Source: an uncultured Bacilli bacterium
GTDB taxonomy: Bacteria; Bacillota_I; Bacilli_A; RF39; UBA660
Direction: 5' to 3'
NCBI GenBank assembly: GCA_944363915.1
Contig: CALVVR010000005.1
Coordinates: 1 to 53,839, forward strand
Length of the DNA stretch: 53,839 nt
This document shows, in pieces, positions 1 to 24,968 of this stretch (positions are counted from its first letter, which is position 1; each line of letters begins with the position of its first letter). Below the pieces are notes generated by a model. It saw only the letters and a list, made by a program, of their open reading frames with translations, was not told where the DNA came from and searched no databases. Position numbers and translations under genes: made by a program.

Positions 1-1
1 T

Positions 2-397
2 TCTCAACCTAGGCATACTGTAAATAGTTCTATTTCTCAACCTAGTCCTTCTGTAGCTAGTTCTACTTCTCAACCTAATCCTTCTGTAACTAGTTCTATT
101 TCTCAACCTAATCCTTCTGTAAATAGTTCTACTTCTCAACCTAGTCCTTCTGTAACTAGTTCTATTTCTCAACCTAGTCCTTCTGTAACTAGTTCTATTT
201 CTCAACCTAGGCATACTGTAAATAGTTCTATTTCTCAACCTAGTCCTTCTGTAGCTAGTTCTACTTCTCAACCTAGTCATACTGTAAATAGTTCTATTTC
301 TCAACCTAGTCCTTCTGTAGCTAGTTCTACTTCTCAACCTAATCCTTCTGTAAATAGTTCTACTTCTCAACCTAGTCTTAATGTTTCTCCAACTTCA
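2..397 (+). repeat. 33-bp tandem repeat, 11 full copies plus one degenerate
   Basis: The unit is 33 bp and stays in frame with the coding sequence. Copies differ mainly at two places: AGT/AAT CCT TCT versus AGG/AGT CAT ACT, and the GTA ACT/GCT/AAT codons. Copies 1, 7 and 9 carry the rarer CAT ACT variant and copies 2, 8 and 10 the GTA GCT variant, so two-unit (66-bp) blocks appear to have been duplicated. The array probably continues beyond the left edge. Confidence 0.92.
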
Positions 398-1502: not shown

Positions 1503-2600
1503 TTAATTTTTTCTTAAATAATCATTAAATTTTTTAAAAGCCTTAGTTTCTAAATCAGTTTTATCCAATTCCTCGAATAATTTTTTTTGATCACGTGATA
1601 GTTTATCTGGCATAATTACATTAAGAACAACATACATATCTCCTTTACGATAACTATGAACATCCTCAATGCCTTTTCCTTTTAAACGTAACTTATCACC
1701 AGTATTACTACCAGATTCAATTGTCAATTTTACATTTCCTGATAAAGTCGGTATTTCTTTTTTACATCCTAATACAGCTTCAGTAACAGTCAAAGGAACC
1801 TCTAAGTATATATCTGTACCATCACGTTCAAATAGCTCGTGTTCACGAACACGATATTCTAAATATAAGTCACCATTACCAGCTGATCCATATTCTCCAT
1901 ATCCAGCAATTCTTTGTTGATTACCATTATCTACACCAGCAGGTATTTTAACTTCAACATCTTTATTTACTCGAATCTTACCAGTTCCAGAACATTTACT
2001 ACAACTTCTTTTATAAGTTCTTCCCTTACCAGAACATTTAGGACAAGTTGTTTTAGTCATAAATGATCCAAGTAAGGTTCTTTGCTCAGTAGTTACGGTG
2101 CCTGTTCCATGACAATTAGAACAAATATCTTCATCAAAGCCACCTTTACCATGACAAGAATCACATTCCTCATAGGTATCCACATTGATATTTTTTTTAG
2201 TACCAAAAGCTGCTTCTTCAAAACTCAAATCAACACGTATGATACGATCTCTTCCTCTTGATTTTCCCCTACTACTATTAGTGTGGCCACCAAAATTAAA
2301 CCCAAAGCTTGAGCCAAATAAATCGCTAAAGATATCCGAAAAATCAAAACCTGAAAAATCGTAACCACTACTACCATTATTTTGAAATGCTGCATGACCA
2401 TATTGATCATATTGTCTTCTTTTATTTTCATCAGACAAAACAGCATAGGCTTCTTGACATTCTTTAAATTTTTCAGCGGCATTCTCTTCTTTTGATACAT
2501 CAGGGTGATATTTCTTAGCTAATTTACGAAAAGCTGATTTTATCTCATCTTGAGTTGCCGTTTTCGAAACGCCTAATATCTCATAATAATCTTTTTTCAT
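1503..2600 (-). CDS. dnaJ: Chaperone protein DnaJ (Hsp40)
   Basis: Co-chaperone that delivers unfolded clients to DnaK and stimulates its ATPase. The 365 residues hold an N-terminal J domain with the HPD signature (about residue 33), a Gly/Phe-rich linker with many FSGFDF-type repeats, four CxxCxGxG zinc-binding repeats ([32 protein letters not shown]) and the C-terminal client-binding domain. This is a complete type I DnaJ of normal length. It is the last gene of the hrcA operon, 12 bp after pepF, and begins ATG AAA AAA with a GAAGGTGAAG ribosome site. Heat regulation would come from the CIRCE upstream of hrcA. Confidence 0.97.
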
Positions 2601-4454: not shown

Positions 4455-6275
<1,821 letters not shown>

Positions 6276-6284
6276 TCATTCCTT

Positions 6285-6935
6285 TCATTCACTAACTTTA
6301 ACCATTGCTGGTCTTATAACTTTTCCTTTTAAAATATAACCTTTTTGTAATACTTCAAGTACCATACCAGGAGCGACATCTTCTCTTTTTTCAGTCATAA
6401 TGGCTTCGTGGTAAATTGGATCAAAAGGTTTATTGTTACCATCAATTTCGACAACACCATAATTTTTTAAGACATTAACGAAATTGCAGTAAATCATTTT
6501 AAAGCCTGATAAGAATTTTGATACTTCATCATCTAAATTAGTATCATCCATACTTATCGCCCTTTCAAAATTATCTAAAATTGGTAATGTTTCTTTAATT
6601 AAATCTTCATTACAAAATTTAAGTAATCTTGCTTGTTCTTCTTCTAGTCTTTTACGATAATTAATAAATTCAGCTTTGCTTCGTAAAAGTTCATCTTCTA
6701 ATTCTTTTATTCTTTTTTCATGAGGAGGTTCATGATGTTCATGGCATTTACATTCTTGATGATCATGACATTTACATTCTTCGTGTTTTTGTTCAGGATG
6801 CTCATGGCACTTGCATTCATCATGTTTATGTTCATGGCATTTACACCCATCGTGTTTTTTTTCATGATGTTTATGATTTTCATGCTCATGATGTTTATGA
6901 TTTTCATGCTCTGGATGTTTCTTTTCTTCTTCCAT
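6285..6935 (-). CDS. grpE: Nucleotide exchange factor GrpE with His/Cys-rich N-terminal extension
   Basis: GrpE releases ADP from DnaK. The core starts near residue 75 (RIKELEDELLRSKAEF, the long dimer helix) and continues into the beta domain (VAPGMVLEVLQKGYILKGKV, the conserved GrpE signature). The first 74 or so residues are unusual: about 22 His and 8 Cys, arranged as ENHKHHE repeats followed by four CKCH motifs. Ordinary GrpE has only a short acidic disordered stretch there. The corresponding DNA contains near-identical 21-bp repeats. The extension looks able to bind divalent metals, which is inference. The start codon lies one base from the hrcA stop, so translation is probably coupled. 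Confidence 0.95.
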   Translation of the reverse strand: MEEEKKHPEHENHKHHEHENHKHHEKKHDGCKCHEHKHDECKCHEHPEQKHEECKCHDHQECKCHEHHEPPHEKRIKELEDELLRSKAEFINYRKRLEEEQARLLKFCNEDLIKETLPILDNFERAISMDDTNLDDEVSKFLSGFKMIYCNFVNVLKNYGVVEIDGNNKPFDPIYHEAIMTEKREDVAPGMVLEVLQKGYILKGKVIRPAMVKVSE

Positions 6936-6936
6936 T

Positions 6937-7929
6937 TTATTTACCTTCTTTCATATTTTCTTTAATATATTCTAACAAAGCAACAACTTTATCATATTCC
7001 ATTCTTTTTGGTCCTACTAAAGCAATTGTTCCTTCTTCACCTTGTGCATCATATTTCATTTTAACTATTGTTACATCATCATCGAATTCAGTTTCACTAC
7101 CAATGTATATGTTGATACCATTATCATTTTCTTCTATTTTATCAACTATTTCTTTATCCTCAAATTTACTAATTATTTCTCTTATTTTATCAGCATTATT
7201 AAATTCTGGCTGCATTAACATATTTTTTCTTCCTGTCATTGTAACAGACTCTTTAGCAAATTCACTAAAAGCATTATAAAAAGCATTGTATAATACTTCA
7301 TGTTGTTTTACATACATAGAAATAATTGGTTTTACTTCATACTCTAAAACTTTTCCTACTTCATTTAATTGTGTACCAATAATCATTTTATTAATCAAAT
7401 CAACCGTTTGTTTAATATCATTAATTGACACATTTTCTTCAATAGTTAAGTTTCGATGCTCAACATGACCTTTGTCAGTTATGACAATAGCAATTAAGTT
7501 ATGCTCATTTATAGGAACTACTTCAACTTTACTAACGCAATTTTCTTTAGATGATTTTCCTAAAACTATAGCTGTTAAATGTGTCATTTCGGATACTATT
7601 TCCATACTTTTAGTAATATAATCATCTAACATCAATGATGAATTTTTAAAAATTGTTTGTAATTTTAACATATCATCGCCAGTTAACTTTTTAGGTTCCA
7701 TAATATGATCAACATAATAACGATATCCTTTTTCACTAGGAACACGTCCTGATGAAATATGTGTTTTTTCTAGTAAACCATTTTCTTCTAGATAACTCAT
7801 TTCATTTCTAATTGTAGCACTAGAACAATGTAAGGCATCACATATTGATTTAGAACTAACTGGTCTAGCAGTCTTAATATAGTCCTCGACAATAATTTTT
7901 AACAAATCAGTTTGTCGTTTATTAAGCAT
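6937..7929 (-). CDS. hrcA: Heat-inducible transcription repressor HrcA
   Basis: HrcA binds CIRCE and represses the dnaK operon until heat unfolds it. The 330 residues hold an N-terminal winged helix (RQTDLLKIIVEDYIKTARPVSS, then SSATIRNEMSYLEENGLLEK), a GAF-like middle (ETEFDDDVTIVKMKYD) and the C-terminal GTIALVGPKRMEYDKVVALLEYI signature split across the dimer domain. It is first in the operon, with an AAAGGTGG ribosome site 7 bases before ATG. It autoregulates through the CIRCE 62 bases upstream. Confidence 0.96.
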   Translation of the reverse strand: MLNKRQTDLLKIIVEDYIKTARPVSSKSICDALHCSSATIRNEMSYLEENGLLEKTHISSGRVPSEKGYRYYVDHIMEPKKLTGDDMLKLQTIFKNSSLMLDDYITKSMEIVSEMTHLTAIVLGKSSKENCVSKVEVVPINEHNLIAIVITDKGHVEHRNLTIEENVSINDIKQTVDLINKMIIGTQLNEVGKVLEYEVKPIISMYVKQHEVLYNAFYNAFSEFAKESVTMTGRKNMLMQPEFNNADKIREIISKFEDKEIVDKIEENDNGINIYIGSETEFDDDVTIVKMKYDAQGEEGTIALVGPKRMEYDKVVALLEYIKENMKEGK

Positions 7930-7974: not shown

Positions 7975-8003
7975 ATTATACTATTATATGCTAGCATTGT
8001 CAA
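7975..8003 (-). promoter_or_regulatory. Sigma-A promoter of the hrcA-grpE-dnaK-pepF-dnaJ operon
   Basis: On the minus strand, TTGACA (7998-8003), a 17-base spacer and TATAAT (7975-7980). Both hexamers match consensus exactly, and the -35 lies inside the CIRCE element. Confidence 0.85.
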
Positions 8004-8017
8004 TATATGAGTGCTAA
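7991..8017 (-). promoter_or_regulatory. CIRCE operator (HrcA binding site) with one degenerate arm
   Basis: The consensus is TTAGCACTC-N9-GAGTGCTAA. Read on the plus strand, the right arm GAGTGCTAA (8009-8017) is perfect; the left arm reads CTAGCATTG (7991-7999, 6 of 9 matching) and the spacing is exactly nine. It covers the -35 box of the hrcA promoter. Confidence 0.85.
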
Positions 8018-8099: not shown

Positions 8100-8351
8100 T
8101 TAATTATCTTTACTTTGTAATTTTGTTAAAGTATTTTGGATTACATTAGGTGCAACATTTTCTACTGTGTACCATCCACATTCAGTCATCTTATTATAAA
8201 GTAAATGTTGTAATTTTAAAGTTTCTTCTAAACCACATTTTAATGCTTGGTGAACTTTTTCGTTGGATGCTTCTAAAGAGCCATGAACATAAACTTCCAT
8301 ATTACTTTTAAGTAATAAAAGCATATTTTCCATCAATAATTGATCATTCAT
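8100..8351 (-). CDS. CotF-family spore coat protein
   Basis: 83 residues that match the Coat_F pattern over almost their whole length: LLMENMLLLLKSNMEVYVHGSLEAS, then EKVHQALKCGLEETLKLQ and CGWYTVENVAP. In Bacillus this four-helix, ferritin-like domain occurs in CotF and related coat proteins deposited on the forming spore. The start overlaps the stop of the upstream 62-residue gene (ATGA), so the two are translationally coupled and may form one complex. A terminator follows. Confidence 0.85.
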   Translation of the reverse strand: MNDQLLMENMLLLLKSNMEVYVHGSLEASNEKVHQALKCGLEETLKLQHLLYNKMTECGWYTVENVAPNVIQNTLTKLQSKDN

Positions 8352-10914: not shown

Positions 10915-11814
10915 CTACTGTGATATTTCAAATTTAATTGGTCCATGATGTTCATAATCAACTATTTTTATATCATTACAATCTTTAGAATTATCAAACT
11001 GATAAAAATCTTTAATATTAGGATTTATCCATAAGCTTGGAGCTTTAATATTTGGTAATGTTTCAAATCTAGCAATTTGTTCTTTAATTCCATCTATTTG
11101 ATTTACATAAATATGAGCATCTTTAATACTCCAATCAATTGTTCCCGGTTTTAAATCACAAACGTGGGCAATTAAACTAAGTAATACGGCATATTGTGTA
11201 ACGTTAAAAGGTAGTCCTAAAGGAACATCACAGCTTCTTTGATGAACCCATAAATTCAATTTACCATCAGTAACATCCCACTCACTACTCCAAACACAAC
11301 TAGGCAAAACTGCTGTTTCTAAATAATCATCTTGCCATAAAGACATTACTAGTCTGCGATCATTAGGATTATTTTTTATTGCATTAATTAATTTATCAAT
11401 CAATTTAAATTTGTCAACAATATAACCATAAGCAGTTCCAATTGTGTAAGCATATTTTTTATCAAATTTTTTAACAATGTCTTTTTTTACTAATTTACCA
11501 TCTTCTAAAACCATTTGATTTGCATGCCACTCACCATTTTCATCAATTTGCCATTCATCCCAAATATGAACATTCCTATCTTGTAACCATCTAACGTCAT
11601 TAGATTGTGCTTGATAAATCCACAGCATTTCTAAAATTGCTTGTCTAAAATATAATTGTTTTGTCGTTAAAACAGGAAATTCTTTTGCTAAGTTGAATTT
11701 TAAATGATAACTAGGTATTTTGATCGTATTAGTTCCAGTTCTATTTTCTACTTTTTTTCCTTCTTTTAAAATTTTCTTACACAATTTTATATATTCTTTA
11801 TCCCATTTTGTCAT
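10915..11814 (-). CDS. thyA: Thymidylate synthase ThyA
   Basis: Makes dTMP from dUMP with methylene-tetrahydrofolate. Conserved sites are ENRTGTNTIKI near the start (dUMP phosphate Arg), the catalytic Cys in LPSCVWSSEW, RSCDVPLGLPFNVTQY and DAHIYVNQID. The Cys context, with Val where most enzymes have His, resembles the B. subtilis ThyA/phage phi3T class as I remember it. I start at ATG 11814, because AGGTGG lies four bases before it; an in-frame TTG six codons earlier has no ribosome site. This gives 299 residues. It is placed between hemW and the DHFR-TMK gene in one transcription unit. Confidence 0.95.
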   Translation of the reverse strand: MTKWDKEYIKLCKKILKEGKKVENRTGTNTIKIPSYHLKFNLAKEFPVLTTKQLYFRQAILEMLWIYQAQSNDVRWLQDRNVHIWDEWQIDENGEWHANQMVLEDGKLVKKDIVKKFDKKYAYTIGTAYGYIVDKFKLIDKLINAIKNNPNDRRLVMSLWQDDYLETAVLPSCVWSSEWDVTDGKLNLWVHQRSCDVPLGLPFNVTQYAVLLSLIAHVCDLKPGTIDWSIKDAHIYVNQIDGIKEQIARFETLPNIKAPSLWINPNIKDFYQFDNSKDCNDIKIVDYEHHGPIKFEISQ

Positions 11815-11843
11815 ACTACCACCTATTATCAATTTTAACTTAA

Positions 11844-23804: not shown

Positions 23805-24968
23805 ATGATATACTATGTTGGTATTGATATATCAAAGTATAAACACGATTTTTGTATTATTTCAAATACAGGCGAAATAATTGTTGAAAATTCTTCGTTT
23901 GAAAACACCAAAAAAGGATTTCAATTCTTATTGGACCAATTGAAACCCTATAATAAATCTGATGTCCACATTGCTTTTGAAGCAACAGGACATTATTCTT
24001 TGAATTTGGAACTGTTTTTATCCAATCAAGGTTATTCATTCGTGAAAATGAATCCCCTTGTCGTTCACCAGTTTTTAAAAGCTCGTAGCTTACGAAGAAC
24101 TAAAACTGATAAAGCTGATAGTTTAACTATCGCTAGCTATCTCATGTCTGTTCCTTATAAACCAAATTCATATTTATTATACAACATTTTTACATTAAAG
24201 TCACTATGTAGAACAAGAGAACAATTAATTAAAGAAAGAAGCAAATTTCAAGTCCTTTTAACCAATGAATTAGATAAAGTTTTCCCTGAATTAAAACCTT
24301 TCTTTAATAACAAAATATCTGAAACTTTACTTTATATTTTAGATAAATATAAAAACCCTAAACATATATCATTAATGAAGGATTTTGATTCTTTAAAAAA
24401 ATTATCTCATGGCAAATTTTCTTATGCTAAATTTGCTAAACTTAAAGAACTTGCTAAAAACACTATTGGTCATTATGATGATAATAATGACTTACTTATT
24501 TCTACTTTTGTTTCTCTTATCTACGACTTTAATAATAAAATTGATCCAATAGATAAACAAATTTCAACAATTATCAAAGAACTTAATCCTAGAATGTTAT
24601 CCATTCCTGGACTTGGTGAAATATCTGCTGCTACAATTTTATCTGAATATGGAGATATCAAAAATTTCCTTTCTCCTAATAAGATGTTAGCTTTTGCTGG
24701 ATTAGAACCTAGTATCATAGAGTCTGGAACTCTTCAGTCTAATGGTAAAATGGTTAAGCATGGTTCTGGACACCTTAGATATTCGATTATGAATCTTGCA
24801 ATGATTACCTTAAGATATTCACCAACATTTTATGATTATTACCTTAAGAAGCGCTCTGAAGGTAAATGTCATCGTGTCGCTTTATCTCATGTTTGTAAAA
24901 AATTGATTAGAATTATTTACTGTTTAGAGAAAAACGATATTGAATTTAATCCGTCTTTACTTAAATAA
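23805..24968 (+). CDS. IS110-family transposase (DEDD recombinase)
   Basis: 387 residues, uninterrupted. The N-terminal RuvC-like domain begins YVGIDISKYKHDF and supplies the DEDD residues Asp8, Glu59 (AFEATGHY), Asp102 and Asp105 (TKTDKADSLTIA). A coiled middle leads to the C-terminal Transposase_20 domain with IPGLGEISAATILSEYGDI, LAFAGLEPS and SGTLQSNGKMVKHGSGHLR; a Ser in the IIESGT region is the likely nucleophile. The AAGGAGGTG ribosome site is near perfect. IS110 enzymes recombine without flanking duplications, guided by an RNA from the element's non-coding end. Intact gene and strong ribosome site suggest recent activity. Confidence 0.95.
   Translation: MIYYVGIDISKYKHDFCIISNTGEIIVENSSFENTKKGFQFLLDQLKPYNKSDVHIAFEATGHYSLNLELFLSNQGYSFVKMNPLVVHQFLKARSLRRTKTDKADSLTIASYLMSVPYKPNSYLLYNIFTLKSLCRTREQLIKERSKFQVLLTNELDKVFPELKPFFNNKISETLLYILDKYKNPKHISLMKDFDSLKKLSHGKFSYAKFAKLKELAKNTIGHYDDNNDLLISTFVSLIYDFNNKIDPIDKQISTIIKELNPRMLSIPGLGEISAATILSEYGDIKNFLSPNKMLAFAGLEPSIIESGTLQSNGKMVKHGSGHLRYSIMNLAMITLRYSPTFYDYYLKKRSEGKCHRVALSHVCKKLIRIIYCLEKNDIEFNPSLLK

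Follow-up and report, generated by a model that had tools for sequence, protein, structure and literature searches.

The GroES protein of Helicobacter pylori, HspA, has an extension rich in His and Cys, by which nickel is bound and both metal content and metal tolerance are influenced (PMC3856676). In Mycobacterium tuberculosis, the zinc redox chaperone Ruc (Rv0991c) is produced under the control of HrcA and binds DnaK (PMC7448276), which, as with Hsp33, places a zinc-thiol element inside the DnaK/HrcA heat-shock network. Metallothioneins (the bacterial SmtA/BmtA/PmtA proteins of PF02069 and the other Pfam families) are short, Cys-rich proteins with CxC arrays. Lastly, the nucleotide exchange factor GrpE has a disordered N-terminal region, which in Escherichia coli was proposed to act as a pseudosubstrate reaching the substrate-binding domain of DnaK (PMC10825016). 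Here, we describe a GrpE with a Cys/His-rich N-terminal tail, encoded in a 53,839-nucleotide stretch of DNA from an uncultured Bacilli bacterium (contig CALVVR010000005.1; the window, hereafter).

HspA is the closest analogue to this protein, since both are essential heat-shock co-chaperones with a terminal His-/Cys-rich extension absent from their relatives. The likeness is one of design only: HspA is a GroES with a C-terminal, nickel-binding extension, whereas the window protein is a GrpE, outside the GroES family, with an N-terminal extension built on CKCH repeats; its lineage has no HypA above cut-off, and related Cys-rich modules sit there on several other proteins. Ruc and Hsp33 act as holdases in their own right, each with a single zinc site of four Cys, in contrast to a repeat tail borne by a nucleotide exchange factor. 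Free peptides of 45 to 62 residues resembling metallothioneins do occur in the family, but in the window a chaperone cofactor bears the module as a fusion, in a largely His-rich form, and it reaches no Pfam or NCBIfam metallothionein model. Compared with standard GrpE (E. coli, 1DKG; Geobacillus, 4ANI), the core fold, dimer helix, beta domain and position of the disordered N-terminal region are alike; the composition of that region differs, with 0 to 3 Cys and 0 to 1 His in other Bacilli families against 41% Cys plus His in the window.

The genes and sequence elements discussed here are listed in the table. By the curated family cut-off, the window protein is an otherwise ordinary GrpE: PF01025 spans residues 71 to 215 (161.6 bits against a cut-off of 25.8), NF010738 is also reached (149.2 against 137), and the chains matched by its family profile are GrpE or GrpEL1 only. 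Its AlphaFold2 model has a confident core, with 100 residues at a pLDDT of 90 or more, whereas residues 1 to 65 fall below 50 and are predicted to be disordered. Residues 1 to 74 matched no Pfam family. A single base separates the hrcA stop from the grpE ATG at 6935, and the GAAGG element preceding this ATG is conserved at the equivalent place in most genus members. No ATG, GTG or TTG occurs in frame between codon 1 and codon 129, which already lies inside the GrpE core; therefore, any GrpE produced from an ordinary start codon includes the tail. Translation from a start near residue 75, which the original prediction had named as the observation that would remove the tail, is contradicted by these two features, and an internal or misannotated start is ruled out. 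The finding of like tails in 15 separately assembled genomes of the genus likewise rules out an assembly artifact. A Met/Phe-rich, 81-residue ORF on the plus strand (6720-6965) was dismissed as an antisense shadow of the repeats.

The gene order hrcA-grpE-dnaK, with dnaJ downstream, places grpE in a heat-shock operon. Before hrcA, a CIRCE-like operator overlaps a TTGACA-17-TATAAT promoter. We propose that a GrpE tail encoded in such an HrcA/CIRCE-controlled operon would be made in quantity, and in larger amounts under stress.

Table. Features of the window and of related loci (L numbers) considered in this study
Feature	Position or locus	Strand	Basis or remark
grpE, complete ORF, 216 aa	6285-6935	-	
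Normal GrpE core (residues 75-216) and stop	6285..6713	-	PF01025 E=1.7e-47; fold of the model matches 4ANI, 1DKG, 9BLS
Cys/His-rich N-terminal tail of GrpE (residues 1-74), 2 x ENHKHHE and 4 x CKCH[ED]H	6714..6935	-	sequence; predicted disorder
Shine-Dalgarno-like GAAGG within the hrcA end, 8 nt 5' of the grpE ATG	6944..6948	-	sequence
hrcA, heat-shock repressor	6937..7929	-	PF01628 E=1e-46
Promoter upstream of hrcA	-35 at 8003-7998, -10 at 7980-7975		read from sequence
CIRCE-like operator, 3 mismatches	7991..8017	-	0.02 expected by chance
dnaK, partner of GrpE	4455..6269	-	PF00012 E=8.7e-253
dnaJ, with the usual CxxCxGxG zinc domain	1503..2600	-	PF00226, PF00684, PF01556
Coat_F protein (spore-coat family)	8100-8351	-	PF07875; immediately 5' of the heat-shock operon; genome of 1.1 Mb
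33-bp unit in tandem, 11.4 copies, at the window edge	1-377		probably part of a repetitive protein
DHFR-thymidylate kinase fusion, 380 aa	9763-10905	-	PF00186 and PF02223
Thymidylate-synthase-like ORF	10915-11832		adjoins the DHFR-thymidylate kinase gene
IS110-family transposase	23805-24968	+	PF01548, PF02371
CDF metal exporter of the same genome	L179, 5839-6729	-	terminus ECHVAIENVSHHHH, ends HHHH; near the CPC P-type ATPase
Free Cys-rich peptides, 45-62 aa, CxC arrays and CTCGCQEGKECTC core	L141, L144, L145, L150, L151, L153, L156, L162, L167, L136		
Presumed histidyl-tRNA synthetase (HisRS), module at C terminus	L140, L158, L161		named by reading the sequence, not by profile
4Fe-4S ferredoxin, module at C terminus	L130, L160, L163-L165		
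Presumed anaerobic ribonucleotide reductase (NrdD), then thioredoxin/glutaredoxin-like domain; module as C-terminal or internal addition	L166		named by reading the sequence, not by profile
Zn_ribbon_2 protein with module	L133		
Small membrane peptide with module	L168		
Protein of family f23, His-rich stretch near its end, then CECTQDDHCGCLDGKECKC	L178, 943-1569	-	both ligand types in one tail

Of the 74 tail residues, exactly 22 are His and 8 are Cys, in agreement with the approximate count of the original prediction; a further 18 are Glu and 13 are Lys. Four CKCH motifs and two ENHKHHE repeats lie ahead of a normal GrpE core. With the window's own amino acid frequencies (Cys, 0.9%; His, 1.6%), the binomial probability of at least 30 Cys plus His in 74 residues is about 1e-28, and the richest other 74-residue stretch among the window's ORFs contains 10. 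Tandem Repeats Finder resolved the tail DNA into units of 24, 30 and 39 bp, the 21 bp that encode ENHKHHE recurring at a 24-bp period. Thus, the local duplications anticipated earlier are real but their unit is not 21 bp, while growth by repeat expansion is supported by the variation of CKCH number and tail length across the genus.

Such repeats could also indicate that the tail has no metal role at all, being a hydrophilic, low-complexity extension generated by replication slippage and tolerated because the GrpE N terminus is free. Tandem units of 24 to 39 bp, varying copy number, predicted disorder and the many relatives with KE-rich GrpE tails devoid of Cys and His are all in line with this idea. 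Slippage does not, however, by itself keep Cys residues unreplaced while synonymous sites vary, and it leaves unexplained both the pairing of these residues as CxC and the recurrence of this module in free peptides and on unrelated proteins. We regard it as improbable. Indeed, the genus tails contain 37 intact CKCH units and one CxCH lacking the Lys, and no unit has lost its first or second Cys, although at the DNA level the 37 units carry 30 synonymous differences from the consensus. Among the window's own four units, all differences inside CKCH are synonymous. Aligned Cys codons gave 127 synonymous versus 7 nonsynonymous differences, a ratio biased by the aligner. Judged from these comparisons, the Cys residues of the tail are under purifying selection. 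Moreover, CxC pairs number 112 in those family tails that have 4 or more Cys, compared with a mean of 24.3 and a maximum of 38 after shuffling; this clustering, together with few other constraints, is the pattern of a metallothionein-like sequence.

The His residues behave differently: their individual positions are no more conserved than Glu or Lys, so that His seems to be kept as composition and not site by site. Orthologous GrpE tails also swap their ligand type. Some contain His only (L024, 15 His; L034, 24 His; no Cys in either), others mostly Cys (23 Cys and 2 His in L015; 13 Cys and 3 His in L027, from the window's genus), and others both. Judged by these residues, the common property of all tails is the presence of soft-metal ligands. 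In 34 of the 37 CKCH units the motif extends to C-x-C-H-x-H, a compact four-ligand arrangement whose two thiolates and two imidazoles would suffice for one Zn(II); Cu(I) might also be bound by such tails.

To map Cys/His-rich N termini, the taxonomic check proposed with the original prediction, we read and compared 71 GrpE sequences (15 from the genus, window included; 41 from other genera of the family; and 15 from other Bacilli families), GrpE being present in 93 of 100 related genomes. A tail was scored when the N terminus had 4 or more Cys or 10 or more His. By this rule, all 15 GrpEs of the genus carry one, 42 to 82 residues long, as do 16 of the 41 from other genera, and none of the 15 from other families. 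The claim that nothing like this is standard in GrpE therefore stands outside the family but not inside it. The remaining 25 of the 41 show that the tail is dispensable in those genera. On a tree built from the GrpE core only, the tail label can be explained with 9 changes, whereas shuffled labels needed 23 on average (none of 500 shuffles was so low), which indicates that the tail is old, clustered and was gained or lost several times. The pattern TGYAARTGYCAYGAR had matches in 30 of 395 Bacilli genomes, and the matches that could be placed as grpE lie in the window's own genome and in G021 (C21, beside its grpE); no other CKCH protein was found in the window's genome. A search for HxHxHxH across the genus was noisy and was set aside.

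Cys-rich sequences related to these tails are not confined to GrpE. A profile made from the Cys-rich GrpE tails, followed by wider profiles (alignments A2 to A4), identified, in 35 of 291 family genomes (E values up to 0.5), a module whose consensus reads KKCNCxxxCTCGCQEGKECTCxxxCxC; among 395 Bacilli and 392 phylum genomes, the matches outside the family were weak and fell in families f4, f19 and f23, that in f19 looking like chance. The loci read correspond to free peptides, GrpE N termini and several unrelated carriers, among them proteins that we take, from their sequences, to be HisRS and NrdD. Neither the window tail nor the one free peptide tested exceeded the cut-off of any Pfam or NCBIfam model; the best metallothionein model for the module, Metallothio_5, scored 14.4 bits against a cut-off of 25, and the sole match of the free peptide among PDB sequences was a weak one to NCOA4 (E=0.13). 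From their sequences, the free Cys-rich peptides are probably an unnamed metallothionein family of this bacterial family. Several family GrpEs match the Cys-module profiles, whereas the His-rich tail of the window does not (A2 to A4). Because of its same position in GrpE, its continuity within the genus (through L027 and L020) and its composition, we infer that this His-rich tail is related to the Cys-only module by homology rather than by convergence.

The nature of some carriers raises the possibility that the tail serves iron-sulfur handling or delivers metal to client apoproteins, as a metallochaperone steered by DnaK/GrpE, given that 4Fe-4S ferredoxins and NrdD bind Fe-S clusters or zinc. 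HisRS and the free peptides fit poorly with such a role, and the CxC and CxCHxH arrays look like those of zinc or copper thiolate proteins and not like Fe-S sites; we give this explanation little credence.

Which metal would be bound can be approached through the metal genes. The window's own genome encodes a ZnuA-type binding protein and an HMA-bearing CPC P-type ATPase, with a CDF exporter close by. TIGR01525 exporters are almost ubiquitous; hence, they do not separate tailed from tail-less genomes. ZnuA is absent from a single genus member (G016); its GrpE tail is also the one whose ligands are nearly all Cys, a coincidence that, as a single case, proves nothing. A ferredoxin of that genome (L130) carries the Cys module. 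His-rich tails readily bind Ni(II), and the nickel-binding extension of the HspA co-chaperonin offers a precedent for a nickel store supplying urease or NiFe hydrogenase. HypA is required for nickel enzymes, yet HypA (PF01155) is above cut-off in none of the 18 genus genomes, and the Cys-only tails of sister lineages are atypical of nickel stores, which makes this role very improbable. Hence, of the three metals put forward originally for buffering, zinc and copper are plausible and nickel is unlikely.

Taken together, the composition, the Cys pattern, the swapping of Cys and His among orthologs and the free metallothionein-like peptides of the family strongly support the earlier description of the extension as metal-binding-like. 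In our preferred reading, which we hold to be probable, the window encodes an otherwise ordinary GrpE whose N-terminal tail is translated, disordered and metallothionein-like, and which is one of the carriers of a portable module that is specific to the lineage and would buffer zinc or copper. The GrpE dimer would thus display two flexible metal sponges, whose main job would be to buffer or sequester cytoplasmic zinc and copper. Metal binding, the identity of the metal, and the abundance and function of the tail are what we infer here from sequence.

The tail sits where the disordered N-terminal region of GrpE normally is, and it might instead work as a metal or redox switch resembling Hsp33 or Ruc. 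Loading with metal, or oxidation of its thiols, would then alter the contact of the GrpE N terminus with the substrate-binding domain of DnaK and thereby link the release of substrates to oxidant stress or to zinc/copper. The region replaced is the one proposed as a pseudosubstrate in E. coli GrpE (PMC10825016), the HrcA-controlled, DnaK-binding protein Ruc loses its zinc when oxidized (PMC7448276), and CxC free thiols are in principle redox active. Nevertheless, the fast turnover of tail sequence, length and ligand type next to a fixed GrpE core fits a sponge better than a precise switch, nothing about the modules on HisRS, on ferredoxin or in free peptides points to DnaK, and the His-only tails have no thiols. 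As the primary function, a switch therefore seems unlikely, albeit worth considering. Alongside buffering, a tail located in the region proposed to contact DnaK may have a second role in making substrate release depend on the metal state, and the tuning of the DnaK cycle by metal, as first suggested, is possible.

More speculatively, the portable metallothionein domain may serve as a general tag through which essential proteins with housekeeping functions (GrpE, HisRS, ferredoxin and NrdD) acquire a metal-buffering or metal-sensing capacity, such that folding, translation and DNA precursor supply would respond to cytoplasmic zinc or copper, with GrpE as its most frequent carrier and a tail switching between Cys- and His-based ligands; we advance this only tentatively. 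While metal-binding chaperonin extensions are known from Helicobacter, we found no description of a His-/Cys-rich GrpE tail in the open literature searched. Should the tail bind metal, metal buffering and the DnaK machine would be physically joined in a gut lineage. The presence of the module on unrelated essential proteins further suggests that metallothioneins are able to spread in the form of tags on proteins, which would be an unusual way for metal homeostasis to evolve.
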